Shown here one piece after another: positions 407-11,091 of a stretch of 11,351 nucleotides of DNA. Under the pieces are notes generated by a model. That model had not been told where the DNA came from, searched no databases, and was given only the letters and a program-made list of their open reading frames with translations. Where the stretch lies: assembly GCA_004298605.1 (NCBI GenBank), contig SCPW01000226.1, positions 1 to 11,351 on the forward strand, given 5' to 3'. The position numbers were made by a program, and so were the translations under genes. Every line of letters starts with the position of its first letter. Positions within the stretch are counted from its first letter, which is position 1. The DNA is from Gallionella sp. GTDB lineage: Bacteria > Pseudomonadota > Gammaproteobacteria > Burkholderiales > Gallionellaceae.

Positions 407-536
407 GGAAACGCCGATTTGATCCGTTCGTGGTGAACCTGTCGAACCATGATCGGATTAAATGTACAACAATCAATTGGTACTGCCAGCCCTTCGACAA
501 GCTCAGGGCGAACGGATGATTTAATCTGCGTTTCCC
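407..536. repeat. Dispersed REP/MITE-like palindromic element overlapping a stop codon
   Basis: The outer arms 407-430 and 509-536 are imperfect inverted repeats: GGAAACGC, GATT and ATCCGTTCG blocks match in order, with one substitution and a short length difference. Inside lie two smaller palindromes: one around TTCGTGGT...ACCATGA (about 422-458), and one around GCCCT...AGGGC (490-509) with the core CTTCGACAAGCTCAGG. From memory, this core is a very common intergenic repeat in beta- and gammaproteobacteria. The right arm contains the TAA stop of the neighbouring minus-strand gene and its last four codons. No transposase is encoded, so any movement would need enzymes supplied elsewhere. It may also act as a transcription end or mRNA-stabilising structure. 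Confidence 0.8.
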
Positions 537-1363
537 TGACTCGCGCCTGTTCCGCGCCAGCTTCGCCGGAGCCGGCCTTCGTACAAAATATCGGTGCAAG
601 AAACAGGGTACAACGTGCCTTCCGGGCGATCCGCAGCTTCGATGTAACAAGGCTGCATTCCGGCCAGAAATGCCGGAAATAAAAACAGGTAATACTCGCG
701 CGGCGAGAAACCGATGTCGGCAACCAGGGCTGCAACCAAACCCGCGTAGTTCATTTTCATGCGCCATCTGCCCGCAAACAAAACCCCTTCCACGGCAAAT
801 GCCAAGCGCAGATAAGACCCTTGGTCAAGCCCCAGACTTTTGGCCAAAGCCAGCATGTGCCGGTTGCGCTCGTCGCCGTTGATGAGCGGGCGGCCATAGC
901 CGCCGATGCTGCGGTGCAACGCCAGTTCCTGGCGGATGCATTCGGCCAGATCGCCTCCCTCATCCACTTGTCGCTTGGTGCGGATCAGAAAATCTATAGC
1001 GCGCATGTCGATACCGCGCCCGTATATGGACGCTTCCGAGACTGCCAGCGCCGCCGCGATCCCCAGATTGCCGGTGCTGCGGGAACTGCCCGCCAACGCG
1101 GCCACGCGGTTGTTCCACAGGCGGACATCGGGATAGCTGGTATAGGTCCAGATGGAGTGCATCAGCCGCAATTGCTCTTTGGTAAAGCGGCGACCGGTGA
1201 TGCCGAACACATAAAGCTCGATCCAATCCATATCCTTCAAATCGGTGTGCAGGTCGTGGCCGCGAAAAATTACATGGCTGCCGGGGTAGAACGTCCCCAT
1301 GCGGCTTTTCAATACACCGGCGTTTTGTTGCAGCAGACCCGGGCCGTTGGTGTGTGTGTTCAT
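521..1363 (-). CDS. Divergent citrate-synthase-superfamily protein, catalytic residues replaced
   Basis: A 280-residue protein with the fold signature of small citrate synthase/citryl-CoA lyase proteins. The N-terminal stretch FRGHDLHTDLKDMDWIEL parallels the usual RGYD...L segment. GGYGRPLINGDER (154-166) parallels the family's PGFGHPV...DPR, and MNYAGLVAALVADIGFSP (204-221) parallels MNVDG...ADLGFPP. By this comparison the three catalytic positions are changed: His to Tyr114, His to Arg158 and Asp to Ala207, although Asp164 of the DPR motif remains. Ordinary citrate synthase or lyase chemistry is therefore unlikely; a structural, regulatory or altered catalytic role is possible. The ATG at 1363-1361 is preceded by AAAAAGGA. 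It is the fourth gene of the TPP enzyme-SDR-CS-CS series, 88 bases after the previous gene, with a palindrome filling that gap. Its stop lies inside another repeat. Superfamily membership is likely; function is unknown. Confidence 0.75.
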   Translation of the reverse strand: MNTHTNGPGLLQQNAGVLKSRMGTFYPGSHVIFRGHDLHTDLKDMDWIELYVFGITGRRFTKEQLRLMHSIWTYTSYPDVRLWNNRVAALAGSSRSTGNLGIAAALAVSEASIYGRGIDMRAIDFLIRTKRQVDEGGDLAECIRQELALHRSIGGYGRPLINGDERNRHMLALAKSLGLDQGSYLRLAFAVEGVLFAGRWRMKMNYAGLVAALVADIGFSPREYYLFLFPAFLAGMQPCYIEAADRPEGTLYPVSCTDILYEGRLRRSWRGTGASQGNAD

Positions 1364-1383
1364 GCTATTTCCTTTTTCAATCT

Positions 1384-1458
1384 ACCGTAGGGGCGCGATT
1401 TATCGCGCCCTGATTTATGCCAACAGAAGGAGGGCGCGATAAATCGCACCCCTACGGT
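1384..1458. repeat. Near-perfect 27-bp inverted repeat (long hairpin) between the two citrate-synthase-like genes
   Basis: Arms 1384-1410 and 1432-1458 are 27 bases each, complementary with a single mismatch, around a 21-base loop. The arms carry GTAGGGGCGCGATTTATCGC, a sequence type I recall as widely dispersed between genes in many bacteria. As RNA it would form a very stable stem between two genes of the same operon. The right arm contains the TAG stop (1454-1452) of the upstream gene. It has no U-tract, so it is not a classical terminator; it may alter decay or expression balance between the two genes. Confidence 0.9.
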
Positions 1459-2246
1459 GCCTCACTTTCCAGCTCCACGATGCCGAACGGAAATTTTTTA
1501 TACCCGAGCGGGCGTTGTTCCAAGGCGTGCGCCGCCGCGCCGGGCAGGCGCAACAGCAGGTGCAGCATTTCGCCCTGCTCGGGGGTGAAGCCCAAATCGG
1601 CAAACGCGGCGGCGGCCACGCCGGACAGAGCGAGCGGGCAACCCGCCGCCGCTTCCAGTTCCGGTAAATTTTGCTGCAACCAGGGCAGGTATACCCCGGC
1701 GTCATAACGCGCCAGGCAGCCCAGCGTTTGCTGCACCGGTGTGGCGGTGCTGACGCCGTGGGGGTCGAAGCCCGGCGGGTGTTCCGGCGCGGGCCAGATG
1801 CTGCCCGGGATCGCGGCCAGCCCTCCCAGCCGCTTGCGCCATGCATCGAGATCGGTGCCGCATTCTGCCCAGCCTTCCATCGCCAGAAATACTTCGCGGC
1901 CTCCGGCCAGTTGCCCGGCGCCCACCGCCAGCGCGGCCATCAGCGTGGAGGCGGCGGTCGAGCCGCACACGCCGCCGCACATCGCGGCATGCACCGAGGC
2001 GTCGCGCGGGCCGGGGTTGGCCAGCGCCACCGCCAGAGCTTCCAGCATGTCCGCCTGCGCCGCCGCCGGCGTTTCCGCGCGGAACAACAGGTAAAGCATC
2101 TCTGCCCAGCGCGCCTGTCCCAGCATCTCGCCGTAAACATCGTAGCCGTGGCAATAGGCGGCGCGGGTGGCGAAAGGGTTGTCGGGCTCCGGCTCTTCGC
2201 GCCAGATGCGGGTGCGGATGGCGTTGGGGTTTTCTTTGTTGGACAT
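1452..2246 (-). CDS. Citrate-synthase/citryl-CoA-lyase-like protein lacking the catalytic triad
   Basis: A 264-residue protein resembling short citryl-CoA lyase-type members of the citrate synthase superfamily. Visible landmarks are CHGYDVYGEML (32-42), LAVGAGQLAGGREVFLAM (106-123, where HGGA is usual), PPGFDPHG (157-164, where PGFGHP is usual), LALSGVAAAAFADLGFTP (205-222, where NVDG...ADLGFPP is usual) and the well-kept C-terminal RLPGAAAHALEQ (233-244). By this alignment the catalytic His, His and Asp are Ala114, Pro162 and Ser208. The ATG at 2246-2244 is chosen because an AGGAG lies just upstream, eight bases after the SDR stop; a TTG at 2267 would overlap the SDR and is less likely. Together with the other citrate-synthase-like gene it forms an unusual pair; they might make a heterodimer, since this family is dimeric with active sites near the subunit interface. 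Function is unknown. Confidence 0.8.
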   Translation of the reverse strand: MSNKENPNAIRTRIWREEPEPDNPFATRAAYCHGYDVYGEMLGQARWAEMLYLLFRAETPAAAQADMLEALAVALANPGPRDASVHAAMCGGVCGSTAASTLMAALAVGAGQLAGGREVFLAMEGWAECGTDLDAWRKRLGGLAAIPGSIWPAPEHPPGFDPHGVSTATPVQQTLGCLARYDAGVYLPWLQQNLPELEAAAGCPLALSGVAAAAFADLGFTPEQGEMLHLLLRLPGAAAHALEQRPLGYKKFPFGIVELESEAP

Positions 2247-2254
2247 GCGGGCTC

Positions 2255-3013
2255 CTAAGGCAAGCACACTAGGCTGATGCCGCCATCGACGACGATTTCT
2301 TCGCCGACCACATAAGCCGAATCGTCGGAAGCGAGAAAGAGCGCGACCTTGGCAACCTCTTCCGGGGTGCCGAAACGTTTGATGGGAGATATTCCTTCGA
2401 TGTTGCTTTTGATGGATTGAAGCGCATCCTGAGGGAGTGGTAAACGTCTAAAACCTCCGGTATCGATTGGCCCGGGATTGATTGCGTTGATTCGAATCCC
2501 GCGGCTGATGAGTGCCAAACCCAAGGATTGCACCAGTGAGCGCAAAGCGGCCTTGCTCGCACCATAAACACTGAAATTGGGAGAGCCGGTCCGGTTGGTG
2601 ATGGAGGTGGTGACGATAATGGAGGCATTTCCGCTGAGTAGCGGCAACGCTTTCTGGATGGAGAAGAATATCCCCTTAAAATTAACACTCACAGTCTCAT
2701 CGAACTGCGCTTCGGACACCAATTCAATAGGCGCCGGAGTGCCGCCGGCAGCATTAAGGAACAGCACATCCAGTTGGCCGAAACTGTTTTTCACCTGCTC
2801 CATCAAGGAATCAATTTCGGTCAGGTTACCCGCTTCGCTGCGGATAACCAAGGTTTCGCTGCCCAACTCCGCTTGCGCGGCGGCCAGCCTTTCCGGGTCG
2901 CGTCCCGTGATTGCCAGCCGCGCGCCTTCGGCGCGAAAGAGCCTGGCGGTCGCCAGGCCGATTCCGCTCGAACCGCCCGTGATTAATACCGTTTTTCCCT
3001 TGAGTCTATCCAT
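2255..3013 (-). CDS. Short-chain dehydrogenase/reductase (SDR), probably NADPH-using
   Basis: A 252-residue classical SDR, the usual length for the family, expected to reduce a ketone or oxidise an alcohol in the cytoplasm. The cofactor motif TGGSSGIG is at 12-19, NAAG at 87-90, and the catalytic tetrad reads Asn111, Ser137, Tyr150 and Lys154 (YGASK). The segment INPGPIDT follows at about 178-185 and the C-terminal VDGG is normal. Arg38 after the second strand (ITGRD) suggests NADP(H). The ATG at 3013-3011 has GAAGGAA upstream and lies 13 bases after the TPP-enzyme stop, so the two are almost certainly co-transcribed. A natural reading is that it reduces the ketone made by the TPP carboligase, as acetoin/diacetyl reductases do, but the substrate cannot be read from the sequence. 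Family assignment is very firm. Confidence 0.95.
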   Translation of the reverse strand: MDRLKGKTVLITGGSSGIGLATARLFRAEGARLAITGRDPERLAAAQAELGSETLVIRSEAGNLTEIDSLMEQVKNSFGQLDVLFLNAAGGTPAPIELVSEAQFDETVSVNFKGIFFSIQKALPLLSGNASIIVTTSITNRTGSPNFSVYGASKAALRSLVQSLGLALISRGIRINAINPGPIDTGGFRRLPLPQDALQSIKSNIEGISPIKRFGTPEEVAKVALFLASDDSAYVVGEEIVVDGGISLVCLP

Positions 3014-3026
3014 GAAAACCGTTCCT

Positions 3027-4862
3027 TCAAAGAATGTTAGTCAAAACCCGCATTCGCACATTCATCGGCGGAATCTCATTGGGGTCGATGAGAACGTCCA
3101 GCAAGGTCGGGCCGTTGTGCGCGCACAGGGCGGCGGCGTCCAGGTCGGACAGGTCTTCCGGCGAGCGGATGGTGTGCGCCTGTGCGCCCAGCGCGCGCGC
3201 CAGCATGGCGAAATCGGTGGGCGGCAGGTCGCAGCCGATCTGTTCCGCACCGGCCATGCGTTGGCCGTGCTTGACCATGCCCAACGAGCGGTCGTTGAGC
3301 ACCACGAAGATGATGTTCAATTTCTCCGCGACGGCGACCGAGAGTTCCTGGCCGCTCATCAGCATGCTGCCGTCACCGGTGATGCAGACCACCGGCGCAT
3401 CGGGGTTGGCGGCCGCCGTTCCGACCGCGCCGCCGATAGCCCAGCCCATGGAGGCAAAATTCATTGTGACGCGCAGCCAGCCGCCATCGGCCTTGCGCAA
3501 TCCGGGCGAGATTTTACGGCTGCCCCCAAATCGCCTTTCGCCGAGACGGCGGTCGACAGCGGGATGCAAATAGTGGACCGACCAGGAAACGCTGTTGCCG
3601 GTGTCGGCGAGGAAACGCGTGGTCGGCGGGAAGAGCCGGCCCAATTCGCGCATCAGCCGTTGCGGCTTGATCGGAGCCGCGTCGCTCTCGTATTTGTCCG
3701 GCATCGCCAGCATGTGGTGCGGCGTCCATTCCGCGTCATCCGGTTCGCGCCCATGCCCGGGATTGCCGGCGTTGCGCCAGCCCTGCATGCGTTCGTTCAA
3801 CCGGTTGAACACCGACAGGATGCGCCCCCGCCCGTGGAGGCGCGCCATCGGCGTGCGCATCAGGTGTTCTTCCGATTCGTCTATATGCACCAGCCGTTCG
3901 TTGAGCAGGCTCTCGCTCCAGCCGCCGCTGTTCCATTCGCCCATGCAGGTGCCGATCGCCAGGATCAAATCCACGGATTTGTCCCGCAGCGCGGCCTCCG
4001 CCGAACCGTGCCCGCCGAAGCCGAATACGCCGCGAAACTGCGGGTGCCTCGGGCTGACCAACCCCTTGCCGTCCGGTGTCGTGACGATGGTGGCGCCCCT
4101 CAGCGCCGCGAACTGGAGTATCGAGCCGATCGCCTCGCCGCACCAGCCGCCGATCAGCAGCACGACGTGGTTGGCCTCGAACAACATCGTGCTCAGCGTT
4201 TCGATCGTGTCATCGTCCACCAGGGAGGCGGGAGCCAGCAGGCTTTGCAGGTCATATGAAGGGGCTTGGTGGGGGCTGGGGCTGCGGAACACGTCCACCG
4301 GGACAGTCAGGTGGGACGGCCCCCTGGGTGTGCGGATGGCGCGTTGCAGCGCGGAAACCAGTTTGGTTTCCATCTGTTTCGGATGCGATACCAGGGAATT
4401 GTAGCGGGTGCAGTGGCGGAACATGCCCAGCGTATCAATCCCGGTGCAGGACGATTCCTGCAGCGCGTTCTTGCCGAAGGCGGGCAACGCGGGTTGCCCG
4501 GTGATCACCAGCATCGGGATATTATTGTCGTAGGCGCAGGCGACGCCGGTGATGAGGTTGGTGGCGCCCGGGCCGGAAGTGGAGCAGCAGACGCCGATCT
4601 TGCCGCTTTCGCGGGCGTAACCGTCGGCCATGAAAGCGGCCCCGGCTTCGTGCCGCGCCAGGATGTGGCGTACACCGCCCCGGCGGGTGCTTCTGGCGAT
4701 GGCGTTGTAGAGCGGTTCGATCGCGCCGCCGGGGACGCCGAACACATATTCGATCCCCATCTGTTCCAGATAGGCAACCAGCAAATCCGCTACTTCTGGT
4801 GTTCTGTCCGGGGTGATTATCGGGTTTTCCCCGGTTATTTCCGTGCGGTTATGGGCAAGCAA
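3027..4862 (-). CDS. Thiamine-diphosphate-dependent acetolactate-synthase-like enzyme
   Basis: A 611-residue member of the TPP-dependent decarboxylase/carboligase family, closest in look to acetolactate synthase large subunits. The N-terminal pyrimidine-binding domain has YVFGVPGGAIEPLYNA (39-54) and the catalytic glutamate Glu72 in ARHEAGAAFMADGYAR, which argues against glyoxylate carboligase. SGPGATNLITG follows at 96-106. The C-terminal domain carries the Mg-TPP motif GDGSMLMSG (496-504) with Asn523 in VVLND. Where acetolactate synthase usually has a Trp-containing QWQ, this has KHGQRMAG, so the substrate may differ. No small regulatory subunit gene lies next to it, unlike branched-chain amino-acid biosynthesis operons. 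The TTG at 4862-4860 is the most upstream plausible start before a stop, with no ATG until residue 35; a GGAGG lies 26 bases upstream across a hairpin. It heads a minus-strand operon with an SDR and two citrate-synthase-like genes. Family is certain; reaction unknown. Confidence 0.9.
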   Translation of the reverse strand: MLAHNRTEITGENPIITPDRTPEVADLLVAYLEQMGIEYVFGVPGGAIEPLYNAIARSTRRGGVRHILARHEAGAAFMADGYARESGKIGVCCSTSGPGATNLITGVACAYDNNIPMLVITGQPALPAFGKNALQESSCTGIDTLGMFRHCTRYNSLVSHPKQMETKLVSALQRAIRTPRGPSHLTVPVDVFRSPSPHQAPSYDLQSLLAPASLVDDDTIETLSTMLFEANHVVLLIGGWCGEAIGSILQFAALRGATIVTTPDGKGLVSPRHPQFRGVFGFGGHGSAEAALRDKSVDLILAIGTCMGEWNSGGWSESLLNERLVHIDESEEHLMRTPMARLHGRGRILSVFNRLNERMQGWRNAGNPGHGREPDDAEWTPHHMLAMPDKYESDAAPIKPQRLMRELGRLFPPTTRFLADTGNSVSWSVHYLHPAVDRRLGERRFGGSRKISPGLRKADGGWLRVTMNFASMGWAIGGAVGTAAANPDAPVVCITGDGSMLMSGQELSVAVAEKLNIIFVVLNDRSLGMVKHGQRMAGAEQIGCDLPPTDFAMLARALGAQAHTIRSPEDLSDLDAAALCAHNGPTLLDVLIDPNEIPPMNVRMRVLTNIL

Positions 4863-4893: not shown

Positions 4894-5024
4894 GGGTGAG
4901 GTCGGGCAACCTCTCGTTTTGTTGGCCAATGAAGGCTGGCGTTCCGGTCTGAAGCCGGTTACTTTTGCAAGGGAATTATGCTACCGCAATTTTCCGCGCA
5001 GCATATATTTTTTTAACCGTGAAC

Positions 5025-5213: not shown

Positions 5214-6452
5214 ATGGGCATGTTCACATCATTTTCACTATCCTGCGACGCGCCTTATTTCCGGCGGCGGATTGGGCGGGCAGCCTGCCTGCTGGCGGCC
5301 TCGTTGCTCGTGGTTTCCGCCGCCCCGGCATGGGCGATCCAGAAAGATTCGGTCGTCCTGACCCGCAAGAATGCACCGTTGCAGGAAGATTACTCCGGGG
5401 TGATTCGCGCCGTAGCCCCGTTCCTCTCCTTGCCCGTTTCGCTTCAGCCGGAGCAGGAAAACCAGGCCGAGGTGATGCGCGCCATCGAGGCGTTTCCGGA
5501 TGTGGTAGTTTTCCCCATCCGGGTCGCGGGCCCCATCACTTCCGCGGCGACCCGGAACCTTGCCAACAAAATCGCGCAGGCATCGGCGACCGGCACCATC
5601 GCGGTAATTTACCCGGACATCGGCGAGCCCTATCGCAGCATATTCACGCAGATCATCGAAGGCATCGAGGGCAAGGCCAAGGGGCGCGTCGCCAATTTCG
5701 CGGTGGGGGCGAACGTGGATGTCGGCGAACTGAATAATTCCCTGCGCCGCCAGGATGCCAAGGTGGTGATCGCGCTGGGGCGGCAGGGAATGAAAATCGC
5801 CTCCGCGCTGGACAGCAACATTGGCGTGGTGGTGGGCGGCGTATTGACGGCGCCGGAAGATGAAGCGCGCAATGTGCAGGTGAACAGCCTGTCGCCGGAT
5901 CCGGCGCTGCTGTTCTCGCGCCTGAAGGGGATGATGCCCAGGGCGCAGCGGGTGTTCACCGTGTACGACCCGCGCCAGAACGCGTGGATGATGCGCCTGG
6001 CGAAAGAGGCCGCGCGCGCGCAGGGGCTGGAACTCGTGGCCTACGAGGCGCGGGACTTGCGGGGCGCGATGCGCATTTATCAGGAAATTTTTGCCACCGC
6101 CGACGGCAAACAGGACGCGCTATGGCTGCCCCAGGATTCCACCACGGTGGAAGACAGCGCGGTGCTCCCGCTGGTGCTGCACGAGTCCTGGGCGCGCAAC
6201 CTGGCGGTGTTTTCCAGCAGTTTCGGGCATGTCAGGCGCGGCGTGCTGTTCTCGCTGTACCCCAACAATGTTGGCTTGGGCCGCCATCTTGCGGGCTCTG
6301 CCCTCGATTTCCTGGCTTCCGGCGAAAACGGGGTATCCGGCATGACCCCGCTGCGCGAGGTGCTGATGGCAATCAACCTGCGCACGGCCAAACACCTCGG
6401 AATCAATGCCGGCCAGCCGCAAAGTTTCGACACGGTGTTCCCCGAACAATAG
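5214..6452 (+). CDS. Secreted ABC-type solute-binding protein paired with a c-di-GMP sensor
   Basis: A 412-residue periplasmic protein resembling the ABC substrate-binding family of the TrpX/YtrF-like type (PF04392-like, from memory). Residues 1-41 form a signal peptide: an Arg-rich n-region (RRRIGR), a hydrophobic core and cleavage after APAWA. The body has the family's two-lobe pattern, with IAVIYPDIGEPYRSIF, later VVVGGVLTAPEDE and a VFTVYDPRQNAW segment, ending in INLRTAKHLGI. No permease or ATPase gene is adjacent, so it is unlikely to serve a local transporter; instead a GGDEF-EAL sensor follows after 12 bases. I infer that it detects a ligand or stress in the periplasm and passes the signal to that sensor. 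The start at ATG 5214 gives a normal signal peptide; ATG 5139 (with GGAG five bases before it) is an alternative that would leave an unusually long n-region. Confidence 0.8.
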   Translation: MGMFTSFSLSCDAPYFRRRIGRAACLLAASLLVVSAAPAWAIQKDSVVLTRKNAPLQEDYSGVIRAVAPFLSLPVSLQPEQENQAEVMRAIEAFPDVVVFPIRVAGPITSAATRNLANKIAQASATGTIAVIYPDIGEPYRSIFTQIIEGIEGKAKGRVANFAVGANVDVGELNNSLRRQDAKVVIALGRQGMKIASALDSNIGVVVGGVLTAPEDEARNVQVNSLSPDPALLFSRLKGMMPRAQRVFTVYDPRQNAWMMRLAKEAARAQGLELVAYEARDLRGAMRIYQEIFATADGKQDALWLPQDSTTVEDSAVLPLVLHESWARNLAVFSSSFGHVRRGVLFSLYPNNVGLGRHLAGSALDFLASGENGVSGMTPLREVLMAINLRTAKHLGINAGQPQSFDTVFPEQ

Positions 6453-6464
6453 GATGAGCCGGTC

Positions 6465-8903
6465 ATGAATAAAAAATTCGCGGCGTTTTCCCAGAAGCTC
6501 ACATTCCAGCGCCAGCTCGGCATCACGGTTACGCTCGGCATCCTCTTCCTCGCGCTGTTTTCCTCCGTAGTCGGGTCGTTGCAGGGCAATGAGCGGGTGC
6601 GCCACGACCTTATCGAGCAGGGGCGGCGCATCACCGAGAATCTGGCGCGCCAAAGCTCCCTGGCGCTGATTTATGCTTCCGCCGACAATGCCACCGAAGC
6701 GGTGAACGCCACCATGGCTTTCCCCGGCGTGGTCGGCCTGGAAATACGCAACGCCAACGGGAACGTATTGTTGATGCGCGGCAACGCCGATCCCGCCGGC
6801 CTTCTCGGGGAGACAAACGGCGGGTTGCAGGCCGCCGCCATGCTCAACGCGGAAAGCTCCGGCGCGTGGCATTTCACCGCGCCGGTCTATTCGCAGCCTT
6901 CCGCGGAATCGCCGTTCAACGATGCGGCGCCCCGCGAGTTGCTCGGCCACGTTTCGGTGGTCATGAGCAAGGCGGCGCTGACCCGGATGACCACCGACAT
7001 TTTCATCACCAACCTGGCCACATCGTTCTCCTTCGCGCTGCTGTTCCTGCTCCTGATCCGCTTCCTTACCCGCAGCATGGCGCGCCCGCTCGACCAGTTG
7101 TCGGCCAGCATGGGGCGCGCCCAAAACGGCGAATCGCAGGTGCGGGTCGTGCCTGCCGGGCCGAAGGACATTGCCGACATGGCGCACGCGTTCAACAGCA
7201 TGATGTCGGTGCAGGAAGAGCGCGAAGCGGCCTTGCGTATCGCCGCCATTGCCTTCGAGACCGAAGAAGGCATGATGGTGACCGATGAAAATGCGGTGAT
7301 CATCCGCGTCAACCAGGCATTCACCCGGTTGACCGGCTACAGCGCCGGGGAAGTGATCGGAAAGAACCCGTCCATGCTCAAGTCCGACCGCCAGGGCGCG
7401 GAGTTTTACCGGCATATGTGGGAAAGCATGCGCCGCGACAACTACTGGCAAGGGGAAATCTGGAACCGGCGCAAGAACGGGGAAATATACCCGGAATGGC
7501 TGAACATTACCGCCGTTATCGGCAAAGACGGCAGGGTCACGAATTACGTCGGCGCATTCATCGACTTCACCGAACGCAAACAGGCCGAAAACGAAATCCA
7601 CCATCTCGCCTTTTACGACCCGCTCAGCCAGTTGCCCAACCGGCGTCTGCTGCTTGACCGCTTGCGGCAGGCGGTGTCGACCGGCGCGCGCAACCAGGCC
7701 GGCGGTGCGCTCCTGTTCCTGGATCTCGATAATTTCAAGACTCTGAACGACACCAAGGGGCACGGTATCGGGGATTTGCTGCTGGTCGAGGTGGCCAAAC
7801 GCCTGCAGGCGTGCGTGCGCGAGGGCGATACCGTGGCGCGCTTCGGCGGGGATGAGTTCGTGCTGCTGCTGGAGGGTTTGAGCGAAGAAAGGGCACAGGC
7901 CGCCGTGCAGGCGCAGGGAGTGGGGGGGAAAGTGCTCGAAACGCTCAGCCAGCCCTACATTCTCGATGGGAATGAGTTCCACAGTTCATCGAGCGTGGGC
8001 ATCACCTTGTTTATCAATTACAAGGAGAAACTCGATGAGTTGCTCAAACAGGCCGACACGGCCATGTACGAAGCGAAAAAATCCGGCCGCAACACCCTGC
8101 GCTTCTTCGACCCCGTCATGCAGGATGAACTGGAAGCCCGCGCCCAGATCGAAGCCGGGCTGCGGGAGGCATTGCGCAGACAGGAATTCAGACTTTACTA
8201 CCAGATGCAGATCAACCACGCCGGGCGCATTATAGGGGCGGAGGTTCTGCTGCGCTGGATACATCCGGAGCGGGGTCTGATCCCGCCGCTGCAATTCATC
8301 CCGCTGGCGGAAGAAACCGGGCTCATCATTCCGATCGGGCAATGGGTGTTGGAAAACGCCTGCCGGCAACTCAAGGCATGGGAAGCGGAACCGCGCACCC
8401 GTGATTTGCAGCTTGCCGTCAACGTCAGCGGGCGGCAGTTCCGGCAGGCGGATTTCGTCGCGCAGGTGAGAGGCATACTCGAGCGCACCGGCATCAACCC
8501 GCTGCGCCTCAAGCTCGAACTGACCGAGAGCATCGTGCTCGACGATGTCGCCGACACCATCGCCAAGATGCTGGCGCTCAGGCAAACCGGCGTCAGTTTT
8601 TCCATGGATGATTTCGGGACAGGCTATTCATCGCTGTCCTACCTGACCCAACTGCCGTTCAACCAGTTCAAGATCGACCAGTCGTTCGTGCGACACATCG
8701 GCACCAAGACCCCCGACGCGACCATCATCCAGACCATTATCGGCATGGCCAATAACCTGGGCATGGAGGTGATCGCGGAAGGCGTGGAAACGCGGGAGCA
8801 ACGCGACTTTCTTGAAGCGAATGGCTGTATGCTCTACCAGGGTTACCTGTTCGGCATGCCCCTGCCTCATGAGGAATTCGATACGTTATTGGGTATGCGG
8901 TAA
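6465..8903 (+). CDS. Membrane c-di-GMP sensor: periplasmic domain-HAMP-PAS-GGDEF-EAL
   Basis: An 812-residue inner-membrane protein expected to both make and break cyclic di-GMP. Domain order: transmembrane helix about 18-40; a periplasmic sensor region about 41-180 resembling CHASE8; second helix about 183-202; HAMP about 203-252; PAS about 255-372 (with ITAVIGKDGRVTNYVGAFID and a PAC-like end); GGDEF about 378-545; EAL about 560-805. The diguanylate cyclase active site is an intact GGDEF at 461-465, with a likely inhibitory RxxD site, REGD, at 452-455. The EAL motif reads EVL at 593-595, a common active variant, and the downstream NVSGRQF, ELTES, DDFGTG (715-720), FKIDQSF and EGVE motifs are all present. 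Both activities therefore look possible, with PAS and periplasmic input setting the balance. It sits 12 bases after the solute-binding protein gene, so the two are co-transcribed. Confidence 0.95.
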   Translation: MNKKFAAFSQKLTFQRQLGITVTLGILFLALFSSVVGSLQGNERVRHDLIEQGRRITENLARQSSLALIYASADNATEAVNATMAFPGVVGLEIRNANGNVLLMRGNADPAGLLGETNGGLQAAAMLNAESSGAWHFTAPVYSQPSAESPFNDAAPRELLGHVSVVMSKAALTRMTTDIFITNLATSFSFALLFLLLIRFLTRSMARPLDQLSASMGRAQNGESQVRVVPAGPKDIADMAHAFNSMMSVQEEREAALRIAAIAFETEEGMMVTDENAVIIRVNQAFTRLTGYSAGEVIGKNPSMLKSDRQGAEFYRHMWESMRRDNYWQGEIWNRRKNGEIYPEWLNITAVIGKDGRVTNYVGAFIDFTERKQAENEIHHLAFYDPLSQLPNRRLLLDRLRQAVSTGARNQAGGALLFLDLDNFKTLNDTKGHGIGDLLLVEVAKRLQACVREGDTVARFGGDEFVLLLEGLSEERAQAAVQAQGVGGKVLETLSQPYILDGNEFHSSSSVGITLFINYKEKLDELLKQADTAMYEAKKSGRNTLRFFDPVMQDELEARAQIEAGLREALRRQEFRLYYQMQINHAGRIIGAEVLLRWIHPERGLIPPLQFIPLAEETGLIIPIGQWVLENACRQLKAWEAEPRTRDLQLAVNVSGRQFRQADFVAQVRGILERTGINPLRLKLELTESIVLDDVADTIAKMLALRQTGVSFSMDDFGTGYSSLSYLTQLPFNQFKIDQSFVRHIGTKTPDATIIQTIIGMANNLGMEVIAEGVETREQRDFLEANGCMLYQGYLFGMPLPHEEFDTLLGMR

Positions 8904-8938
8904 TGGCGCATGCGCTTCATCCCAGGAATCTTAATTCG

Positions 8939-9059
8939 GGCCACAGAGAACACTAGAGAAATCAGCGGTGTTATACGTTTTTATGACACCCCAAAAAGGT
9001 GAACCAATTCCCGGGTTCAACTGTTTTTTTACTCTGTGATCTCTGAGTTCTCTGTGGCC
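8939..9059. repeat. Dispersed inverted repeat with perfect 13-bp ends (CACAGAGAAC type)
   Basis: GGCCACAGAGAAC at 8939-8951 is exactly complementary to GTTCTCTGTGGCC at 9047-9059, and further partial matches (AGAGA blocks) continue inward. From memory, CACAGAGAACACAGAG-type ends are a widespread intergenic repeat in Gram-negative genomes. It occupies most of the gap between two convergent genes and encloses two smaller hairpins: GGTGTTAT/ATGACACC at 8967-8990 with one mismatch, and a terminator-like stem at 9000-9019. Confidence 0.8.
9000..9030 (+). terminator. Possible Rho-independent terminator after the GGDEF-EAL gene
   Basis: TGAACC (9000-9005) pairs with GGTTCA (9014-9019) around an eight-base loop, and seven T residues follow at 9024-9030 after ACTG. 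The stem is short and the T-run starts four bases late, so it is only a moderate candidate. It lies about 100 bases after the stop codon and within the dispersed repeat. Confidence 0.35.
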
Positions 9060-9123
9060 GACAGCGTTTTTAAGGTTCATCCGTTTCGACCGCACCCCTG
9101 CAATCATGAAATGGGATGGCGGA

Positions 9124-10386
9124 TCAAATCTCGAAGTGCTGCCGCACGCAGTTTTCCAGGAGTTGGCGGGCATCGTTTTCGGTGCTGTTTACCAGGCGGT
9201 CGAAGATATCGGGCGCTATCGTGCGGAACACGGCCATGACCGACGGGTCGAAATGGCTTCCCGTGCCTTTCTCGAGAACCGCCATCGCTGCCCCGAAGTC
9301 CATGGGTTCCTTATACGGGCGTCTCGAGCAGAGCGCATCGAACACATCGGCAACGGCAAAAATACGCGCCGCGAGCGGTATTGCCCCGCCCGCGATCTTG
9401 CGCGGGTAGCCGGAGCCGTCCCATTTTTCGTGATGGGCGGCCACGACCGCGTTCGCGCCATCGAGCCAACCCATGCCGGCGACAATCCCCTCGCCTTGTT
9501 CGACATGGGTGCGCATGATGGTTAACTCCGCATCGTCCAGCTTCCCGGGCTTGAGCAAGATTTTGTCGGGGATCCCGATTTTGCCGACATCGTGCAGAAA
9601 GCTGCCTGCAATCAGAGCCTGCATGTCGCTCCCCCCCAGGCCCATGCGCTCGGCTATGCGCGCGGCGATCCATGCGACCCGGTAATTGTGCGCGCCGGTA
9701 TCGGAATCGCGCCTGGCGATGGCGCGACCGAGGGATTCCATCATGGAAATATGCGATTCGAGCAGCTCGCGCGCTTTGCGTTCGTTGTCGGCTGACAGGC
9801 GCATCACGACCGGATAGAGCGCGATGCCGCAAAGCAAAGATGCCAGGCAGACCATCAATGCCGCGGTCAGGGAGCTGGAGAAAATTTGCTGCTGCTGCCA
9901 TGTCGGCACGACCCGAACCCCCTCGAAATAGCCGGTAATTGGCCCTTTCGTGTCGGTTGCCGAACTCCGCAAGGGGACGAAAACCTGCAAGACCCAGCGC
10001 CCACCGGGGAGTTTCATGCTTTTGTAAGATGCGGCAATGTAGTCCGGTGCGCCATGTTTGGGCAGGAACGATTCAATCGCAACGCCCTCGCCGGTCAGCG
10101 ATTCGGCAAGCTTGCGCCCGCTGCGGTCATAAATTTCGACGACATCAAACAGGCCGCCGGAAATGGTCTTGGCGGCAACGGCGGCATGCCCGGCGGCATC
10201 CGGGCCGGTCAGGTTGATAGCGTTGTAGTGGCGGAGCAACAGCCGCGATTCTTCGATGGCCAGCGAAACGATACTTTCTTCTGCGCCCTTGCGCGCAACG
10301 AACCATGACGCGGGGCTGGCGATAGACGCCAGGAGAACGCTGACAGCGGCAATCCGGATCGCGGTACGCTTCTGGAAGGGATTCAT
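9124..10386 (-). CDS. Membrane-bound HD-GYP cyclic di-GMP phosphodiesterase
   Basis: A 420-residue inner-membrane protein expected to hydrolyse cyclic di-GMP. A transmembrane helix lies at about 11-30, a periplasmic sensing region at about 31-168 (with FDVVEIYDRSGRKLAE, a Cache-like pattern), a second helix at about 171-195, then a short linker and the HD-GYP domain at about 208-400. The metal and catalytic residues are all visible: His233 (GAHNYR), His265-Asp266 and Lys269 (HDVGKIGIPD), His294, His318-His319, the GYP motif at 326-328 (HHEKWDGSGYP) and Asp347. The enzyme therefore looks active. The ATG at 10386-10384 is preceded by AAGGCGG. It is a single gene, convergent with the GGDEF-EAL gene, so three c-di-GMP catalytic domains cluster in 4 kb. 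A weak promoter-like pair (TTGCAG, 17 bases, TAAGCT) lies within about 85 bases upstream. Confidence 0.95.
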   Translation of the reverse strand: MNPFQKRTAIRIAAVSVLLASIASPASWFVARKGAEESIVSLAIEESRLLLRHYNAINLTGPDAAGHAAVAAKTISGGLFDVVEIYDRSGRKLAESLTGEGVAIESFLPKHGAPDYIAASYKSMKLPGGRWVLQVFVPLRSSATDTKGPITGYFEGVRVVPTWQQQQIFSSSLTAALMVCLASLLCGIALYPVVMRLSADNERKARELLESHISMMESLGRAIARRDSDTGAHNYRVAWIAARIAERMGLGGSDMQALIAGSFLHDVGKIGIPDKILLKPGKLDDAELTIMRTHVEQGEGIVAGMGWLDGANAVVAAHHEKWDGSGYPRKIAGGAIPLAARIFAVADVFDALCSRRPYKEPMDFGAAMAVLEKGTGSHFDPSVMAVFRTIAPDIFDRLVNSTENDARQLLENCVRQHFEI

Positions 10387-10587: not shown

Positions 10588-11091
10588 TCAGCGGTCGCCG
10601 GGGTGATCGGAAAACGGTGGCTGCTTGCCGCCACGCTCGCCCATGTCGCGTTTGAATTGCCGGCGTTCTTCCGGCGACATTTTCTCGAAGCGTTCGCGCA
10701 TTTCCTTGCGGCGTTCCGCGCGTTGCTCCGGGGTCATATTTTCCAAGTGACCCTTCATTTTTTCGCGCATTTCCCTGCGCTCGTCCGGGGGCATTTCCTC
10801 CCAGTGCTCACGCATTTCCTTGCGGCGTTCCGCGCGTTGTTCAGGGGGAATTTTTTCGAGCTGTTCGCGTATTTCCCGGCGTTTTGACGCACGCTGTTCA
10901 GGCGTCATGCCCCGCATTTCCTCGCGCATCGCTTTGCGTTCTTCGGCGCGCTGTTCGGGGGGCATGGCTTTCATCCGCTCCATGTGTTTCCGCATGGGCG
11001 GTTTGTCCGCAGGGGCATCGGCGGCCATCGCGTTCAGGCCGAACGAGGCGGCGATGCCTGCGGCAATAAGTGTTTTAAGAACTGTATTCAT
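10588..11091 (-). CDS. Secreted protein of six 19-residue charged repeats (Spy/CpxP-like motifs)
   Basis: A 167-residue protein with a Sec signal peptide (residues 1-23, cleavage near AMA before Ala24). Residues 43-156 are six consecutive 19-residue repeats starting at 43, 62, 81, 100, 119 and 138, with the pattern M-[P/T/S]-P-E-Q-R-A-E-R-R-K-E-M-R-E. The MTPEQR core resembles the LTxxQ motif of periplasmic Spy/CpxP proteins, which act as chaperones or metal-stress sensors; this similarity is short and the assignment is tentative. The repeats are rich in Arg, Glu, Lys and Met and should form long charged helices. Met-rich secreted helices sometimes bind copper, but that is speculation here. 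The start at 11091 has GGGGAG upstream and lies 27 bases after the preceding small gene, so the two are probably one operon. Confidence 0.85.
   Translation of the reverse strand: MNTVLKTLIAAGIAASFGLNAMAADAPADKPPMRKHMERMKAMPPEQRAEERKAMREEMRGMTPEQRASKRREIREQLEKIPPEQRAERRKEMREHWEEMPPDERREMREKMKGHLENMTPEQRAERRKEMRERFEKMSPEERRQFKRDMGERGGKQPPFSDHPGDR
10624..10965 (-). repeat. Coding tandem repeat, six units of 57 bp
   Basis: The region encodes six in-phase 57-bp units with no length variation. Similarity extends to DNA: a 29-base stretch at 10697-10725 recurs exactly at 10811-10839, two units (114 bases) away. Near-identical units at this distance suggest recent duplication or gene conversion, while the fourth and sixth units are more diverged. 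Confidence 0.9.

Follow-up and report, generated by a model that had tools for sequence, protein, structure and literature searches.

The window, which is the whole 11,351-base contig SCPW01000226.1 of a Gallionellaceae-type genome (2.30 Mb in 462 contigs, 86% complete), carries a gene island in which a thiamine diphosphate (ThDP, or TPP)-dependent carboligase and a pair of citrate-synthase-fold proteins, CS1 and CS2, lie beside a TonB-dependent receptor (TonB receptor), a PF04392-type periplasmic binding protein (SBP) and a membrane sensor. The reading favoured here, to which a probability slightly under one half (about 0.48) is given, is that a small diffusible ligand is both produced and detected by the genes of the island. 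The commonest constant among the loci compared is an enzyme of one TPP clade together with a set of sensing genes, with the CS1-CS2 pair as the usual and a short-chain dehydrogenase/reductase (SDR) as an occasional tailoring partner, a pattern that fits a self-made, sensed ligand better than a housekeeping pathway. An island of this gene set is apparently undescribed in iron-oxidising and related bacteria; no title found in the openly licensed PMC literature describes it, which is weak evidence of absence.

Open reading frame (ORF) calls place the TPP enzyme, the SDR, CS1 and CS2 in that order in a single minus-strand run, with gaps of 13 bp (TPP-SDR), 8 bp (SDR-CS1) and 88 bp (CS1-CS2). The TonB receptor ORF, cut by the contig end, lies 147 bp downstream of CS2, and the genes for the binding protein and sensor are transcribed divergently, upstream of the TPP run. 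An earlier note on this DNA, made from the sequence alone, had proposed a four-gene unit at 521..4862; its coordinates, strand and spacing were right, but the boundary was too narrow, leaving outside the TonB receptor and the SBP and sensor at 5214-8903.

The three TPP domains and the SDR domain scored far above the Pfam cut-offs. The catalytic Glu72, G496-D497-G498 and N523 of the TPP enzyme were invariant in 26 aligned rows and align with the E. coli enzymes. Domain order and cofactor motif are common to the island enzyme and acetohydroxyacid synthase (IlvB/IlvI), from which it differs in an identity of 27-29% to E. coli IlvB and IlvI, in the survey of Pfam domains and ORFs that found no acetolactate synthase small-subunit gene among the window's genes, and in its place in the tree. 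All 68 rows of subfamily A, subfamily B and other island or free-standing TPP enzymes formed a single clade (support 0.988) separate from E. coli IlvB, IlvI, Gcl, PoxB and Oxc; IlvB, IlvI, Gcl and the genome's own IlvI formed another (support 0.957). The four rows of subfamily C joined BbmA with support of 0.982, and the branch joining all island-type rows with BbmA and CsmA was weak (0.529); the letters A, B and C are labels coined in this analysis. Acetolactate synthases headed the enzyme's NCBIfam matches, the best of which, TIGR00118, reached 294.7 bits against a cut-off of 538.35 (best 25 of 59 matches). The genome has two PF02776 matches in all, and a separate IlvI followed by IlvH is encoded on contig C94, each 57% identical to its E. 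coli counterpart. Assignment as an IlvB/IlvG-type acetolactate synthase was rejected on the basis of the scores below cut-off, the separate clade and the IlvI and IlvH encoded elsewhere in the genome. The earlier note had argued against branched-chain amino-acid synthesis and had named grouping with IlvB/IlvG in a tree as a refutation; the argument is borne out, and the enzyme does not group there.

A profile search of the Protein Data Bank (PDB) returned BbmA (472 bits) and CsmA (385 bits) ahead of an acetolactate synthase (321 bits). These closest solved relatives (PDB 8x3x and 8x3z) are about 32% and 29% identical to the island enzyme, respectively, and have Gly, as do all 26 island rows, where IlvI has Trp and IlvB has Gln. 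In the sequence printed for the PDB entry 'BbmA-G484F complex with CBOA', Phe replaces that Gly. The Gly at the IlvI Trp position suggests a roomier acceptor pocket. The products of BbmA and CsmA were not found in the openly licensed PMC literature, and we know of no citrate-synthase-like partner for either enzyme.

CS1 matched PF00285 below the cut-off (21.0 versus 27 bits), no Pfam family matched CS2 at E 0.1, and both proteins matched the PRK06224 citryl-CoA lyase models of NCBIfam far below cut-off. Their predicted structures were closest to citryl-CoA lyase, ATP-citrate lyase and citrate synthase; the models, built from shallow alignments of 20 rows each with mean pLDDT of only 61-62, were used at the level of fold. 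By predicted fold CS1 and CS2 belong to the citrate synthase/citryl-CoA lyase superfamily, and they resemble citryl-CoA lyase (PDB 6hxp) and the ATP-citrate lyase module in fold and approximate length. They are unlike citryl-CoA lyase in forming an adjacent pair and in the loss of residues which we take to be catalytic in the superfamily: the Asp of NVDG, the His of SAHGGA and the His of GYGHR. The titles of D1026A and D541A mutants among the structure matches agree with this role for the Asp. Neither at its column nor one column away was the Asp present in any of 64 CS1 rows or 66 CS2 rows. At the SAHGGA His position CS2 has Tyr in 65 of 66 rows and Phe in the other, and at the GYGHR His position a gap in 66/66, so that all three residues are missing from every CS2 row; CS1 keeps the SAHGGA His in 15/64 rows. 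On the loss of all three residues CS2 was rejected as a working citryl-CoA lyase or citrate synthase, as was CS1 on the loss of the Asp. Some CS2 homologues are labelled citryl-CoA lyase in their source records, a label that the residues do not support. The two citrate-synthase-superfamily proteins of the earlier note thus stand as to fold but not as to a full catalytic set, and since the fold is kept without that set, ordinary citrate-type chemistry by CS1 and CS2 appears unlikely. Because CS1 precedes CS2, adjacent to it, in 62 of 62 pairs, we infer a CS1-CS2 heteromer. Independently of the signalling reading, a conserved CS-fold pair that lacks the catalytic Asp would put a textbook fold to a new use.

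The TPP and CS2 genes were surveyed reciprocally. CS2 was found in 44 of 369 class genomes at E <= 1e-5, weak and fragmentary matches included, and the TPP clade in 48 (TPP alignment, E <= 1e-120). The two occurred together in 40 of the 369 genomes versus 5.7 expected (hypergeometric 7e-41, relatedness uncorrected), and this reciprocal co-occurrence rejects a chance neighbourhood. In 33 of the 40 the genes lie within 6 kb, in one they are 264 kb apart, and in six they are on different contigs, some of which contig breaks may explain. The four genomes with CS2 only comprise a contig-end fragment (G132), a decaying copy (G114), a weak match (G435) and a match near a contig end (G208); the eight with the TPP gene only include G144, with a CS2 fragment at a contig end, and G286, in which the TPP gene starts at a contig edge. 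In the decaying island (L113 in G114) both the TPP gene and the TonB receptor gene are fragmented, and part of CS2 is missing. Across the phylum CS2 was found in 12 of 398 genomes: two (the window's genome and G166) also belong to the class set, two (G448, G682) are weak, and eight others lie outside the class. Among 81 relatives 19 had CS2, two of them weakly; 17 had CS2 at E < 1e-30, 19 carried the TPP clade and 16 carried both. In two relatives (G006, G030) CS1 is present and CS2 falls past the end of the contig, and G009 has the TPP, TonB receptor and SBP genes and no CS1-CS2 pair. In G009 the TonB receptor gene is followed, on the same strand, by one for a sulfotransferase (L196:4972-6219).

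Twenty named loci were located by contig scan in Gallionellaceae, Herbaspirillum, Noviherbaspirillum, Janthinobacterium, Methylomonas, Rhodocyclaceae, Roseateles, Pelomonas, Leptothrix and unclassified entries. The hosts include Methylomonas koyamae, Noviherbaspirillum denitrificans, Roseateles cellulosilyticus and Pelomonas, and such named, cultured-type hosts make the island testable. CS1 adjoins CS2 in 20/20 of these loci (partially in L033), the TPP gene is present in 18/20 (the contig end truncates L033, and L036 lacks the gene) and a TonB receptor is nearby in 19/20. The SDR is present in nine, to which the full four-gene set is thus limited; it was rejected as a core enzyme and is considered optional. 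The expectation that four genes co-occur therefore holds for TPP, CS1 and CS2 and fails for the SDR, and a core consisting of a carboligase followed by a ketone reductase, as the earlier note had it, was not found. Its proposal of a single conserved unit was upheld by the 40 shared genomes and by the invariable CS1-CS2 order. Fifty further stretches were taken, with L114, L128 and L129 excluded from the counts as weak. CS genes are present in 67 loci, of which 44 (12 named, 32 unnamed) are flanked by 8 kb or more on each side and are termed full-flank; no two of these have identical CS2 sequences, and 39 have the TPP gene within 9 kb. In one genome (G216; L088/L180) a break within CS2 divides the island: the N-terminal portion lies near 3.776 Mb together with TPP, SDR and CS1, and the rest is found on the opposite strand at a distance of about 0.5 Mb.

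A TonB receptor gene was found within 9 kb in 39/44 full-flank loci, the others being L088 (a CS2 fragment), L095, L097, L126 and L127, and a PF04392-type SBP gene was nearby in 35/44. The background was 3-5 plug proteins per genome (three genomes), or roughly a 3% chance per 20 kb, and 1-2 PF04392 matches per genome (five genomes), or roughly 1% per 20 kb as a lower bound; the SBP of the window is the sole PF04392 match in its genome at E 0.001. The link to the TonB receptor, which had been called weak, is thus among the strongest features of the island. A full-length receptor homologue (L030:10890-12944) gave plug and barrel matches only. The SBP gene is followed directly by the sensor gene in the window, L034 and L120. 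Sensor architectures vary from HAMP-PAS-GGDEF-EAL in the window to HAMP-histidine kinase (HK) in L085 and, in the 1,478-residue protein of Methylomonas L034, HAMP-HisKA-HATPase-RR-Hpt-GGDEF-EAL. Counts of HK and GGDEF neighbours were dropped because iterated profiles ran into neighbouring domains, and the approximate sensor count was not used. Where neither receptor nor SBP was found in the stretch, other sensors often adjoin the enzymes: a Ser/Thr-kinase-AAA-GAF-HK protein is encoded beside CS2 in L124, L126 and L127, next to a LuxR-type response regulator in the latter two, and GAF/PAS hybrid kinases adjoin the TPP-CS1-CS2 trio in L097 and L099. In L125, a stretch in which no TonB receptor was found, the gene after CS2 encodes an AMP-binding (acyl-CoA ligase-like) enzyme (8057-9568).

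The partners of the TPP enzyme also vary. A TPP-clade gene stands with genes for a methyltransferase, TonB receptor, SBP and HK in G212, and with genes for a KAS III-like enzyme, TonB receptor, SBP and sensor in G113, each a single locus; a family-level follow-up recovered the methyltransferase variant in 1/4 genomes and the KAS III-like variant in 1/1, that is, one locus each. Relative to the window, L119 is 82% identical in TPP, 39% in CS1 and 29% in CS2, and L022 is 55% identical in TPP, 84% in CS1 and 88% in CS2, values from which parts of the island are judged to recombine among the window's nearer relatives. FIST-domain proteins with HK or GGDEF-EAL adjoin island-clade TPP genes in L168 (10584-12691) and L175 (3565-7516).

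A pathway consistent with these results can be proposed. From its family, the TPP enzyme would decarboxylate a 2-oxoacid and add the resulting unit to an acceptor, yielding an alpha-hydroxyketone (acyloin) or related core, which the putative CS1-CS2 heteromer would bind or modify in a rebuilt active site and the SDR would reduce at a carbonyl in some strains. The product would leave the cell and, as the linkage suggests, return across the outer membrane through the TonB receptor. Gene order further suggests that the product is bound in the periplasm by the PF04392 protein, and that this protein signals to the sensor whose gene starts 12 bp further on; the sensor would set a cyclic di-GMP (c-di-GMP) or phosphorelay output.

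LuxPQ and NspS-MbaA are precedents for ligand sensing (PMC12121927) in which a binding protein is paired with either a membrane kinase or a GGDEF-EAL enzyme, as is proposed for the island. The autoinducer CAI-1, (S)-3-hydroxytridecan-4-one, described in the same paper, is a precedent for a signal of the alpha-hydroxyketone class. In the window the SBP is likewise encoded beside a membrane GGDEF-EAL protein, and the sensing half of the island resembles LuxP/LuxQ or NspS/MbaA in gene architecture. Unlike those systems, the island has a PF04392 SBP and contains ligand-making genes and a TonB receptor; unlike the LuxS-made signal, its candidate synthase is a TPP carboligase. An alpha-hydroxyketone, the product class of CqsA/CqsS signalling, is possible for the island too. 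CqsA is a PLP enzyme, different from the TPP carboligase of the island.

Several observations weigh against a ligand that is both made and sensed. TonB receptors usually serve nutrient or siderophore uptake, and since a TonB receptor-PF04392-sCache_4-HAMP-HK-RR triad exists without TPP or CS genes (L189:3681-8568 in G040), the receptor module may bind foreign ligands; this triad is possibly a listener for a foreign or shared ligand. No SBP was detected in nine of the 44 full-flank loci (L088, L089, L095, L097, L104, L110, L112, L126, L127), and in L095 nothing matched the queries for the receptor or for the sensor. The PF04392 model missed the SBP of the G141 island, which tblastn found, making the background for that family a minimum, and with 15-44 GGDEF proteins per genome the proximity of a sensor is weak evidence when taken alone. 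In L036, which has the CS1-CS2 pair, about 7 kb of upstream sequence contained no match to TPP. For CS1 the GYGHR His falls in the exact column in 1/64 rows and within two columns in 38/64, a region where the alignment is not decisive. In G008 the GGDEF-EAL protein (82%) and SBP (74%) are more conserved than TPP (57%) and CS2 (55%), a pattern that does not suggest matched diversification of synthase and receptor. Finally, no general exporter was identified among the island neighbours scanned, which were selected genes only.

Other explanations would assign the same genes to different functions. If the island served a metallophore or other scavenging ligand, the enzymes would make a chelator that is exported, metal-loaded and reimported by the TonB receptor, with the SBP and sensor reporting its return. 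The frequency of receptors in full-flank loci, the iron-oxidiser-type host and the L026 receptor, whose NCBIfam matches below cut-off were to haemin, siderophore and B12 receptors among others, all accord with that function. It is nevertheless judged unlikely in view of the SBP-sensor gene order in three loci, the five full-flank loci without a receptor, three of which (L097, L126, L127) encode sensor kinases of other types next to the trio, and the occurrence of the island in Methylomonas and other genera not known to us as iron oxidisers. Uptake and breakdown of a foreign compound, imported by the receptor, sensed by the SBP and cleaved by TPP, CS1, CS2 and SDR in the lyase direction, is more doubtful still. 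TPP enzymes and citryl-CoA lyases are able to run as lyases, as is known of the families, and both the AMP-binding enzyme after CS2 in L125 and the synthase-free triad would fit; on the other side, the catalytic Asp is missing from every row of CS1 and CS2, the scanned recurring neighbours are housekeeping genes, EamA (3/20) or unassigned rather than a degradation pathway, and L126 and L127 keep TPP-CS1-CS2 beside sensor kinases in the absence of a receptor. That the enzymes serve ordinary branched-chain amino-acid, acetoin or glyoxylate metabolism beside incidental neighbours is highly improbable: the best NCBIfam matches are indeed acetolactate synthases, but those scores are below the curated cut-offs, the clade is separate, the genome has IlvI with IlvH on another contig, and the conserved partners are not ilv genes.

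If the island does make and sense its own ligand, about one in eight sampled class genomes (44/369) would carry a system of chemical communication or self-sensing for which no name was found, tied in many loci to c-di-GMP and the switch between swimming and biofilm. A wider proposal, offered tentatively and held with less confidence, is that of an undescribed signalling island in which a ThDP carboligase clade and a rebuilt CS pair make a new class of extracellular signal that is recaptured by dedicated TonB receptors and read by PF04392 proteins through c-di-GMP or phosphorelay sensors; swapping of synthase partners between lineages, in which the CS pair is exchanged, lost or gives way to a methyltransferase or KAS III-like enzyme, may give modular signal diversity, and synthase-free triads may eavesdrop.

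Table 1. Positions of the island genes and repeats in the window.
Feature	Position	Strand	Basis or remark
ThDP (TPP)-dependent acetolactate-synthase-like carboligase, 611 aa	3027..4862	-	PF02776/PF00205/PF02775; TTG start assumed
SDR, 252 aa, optional accessory	2255..3013	-	PF13561, E 1.1e-59
CS1, citrate-synthase/citryl-CoA-lyase fold protein, 264 aa	1452..2246	-	ATG start; mechanical ORF begins upstream, at 2267
CS2, second citrate-synthase/citryl-CoA-lyase fold protein, 280 aa	521..1363	-	
TonB-dependent receptor, N-terminal plug only (first 124 residues), cut by contig end	2..373	-	PF07715
Periplasmic binding protein	5214..6452	+	PF04392, 30.1 bits versus cut-off 25.9
Membrane sensor, HAMP-PAS-GGDEF-EAL, 12 bp after binding protein	6465..8903	+	Pfam
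Inverted repeat, 28-nt arms, CS1-CS2 gap	1384..1458	.	arms 96% complementary
Inverted repeat, 25-nt arms, CS2-TonB receptor gap	422..517	.	arms 80% complementary

For the binding protein the ATG at 5214, which precedes a signal-peptide-like stretch, is a likelier start than that of the listed ORF at 4965. The two inverted repeats are probably inserted genomic repeat elements because CS1 and CS2 are nearly contiguous, without such a wide gap, in relatives such as L022 and L026; flanking CS2, they may affect mRNA processing. No Rfam RNA matched the window at gathering thresholds.

Pfam scans of selected genes that recur outside the island in the named loci identified pyrophosphatase, FolD-type, YebC-type and RecQ-type proteins, a flavin oxidoreductase, an EamA transporter and unassigned proteins. 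One ORF cluster (c10) was rejected as an antisense artefact, lying on the opposite strand over the SBP gene with no Pfam match. Past the sensor, the window encodes an HD-GYP-type protein (HD_5; 9124-10386, minus strand) and a small repetitive DUF3106 protein (10588-11091, minus strand), and no conserved link of either to the island was seen in the ORF clusters of the 20 named loci. In three of these loci, L023 (12973-13899, by Pfam scan), L025 (from 13775) and L027 (from 12966; the latter two by ORF clustering), the EamA gene is found past the TonB receptor gene and on the other strand, and its product is a possible exporter in those loci, though not a general one.

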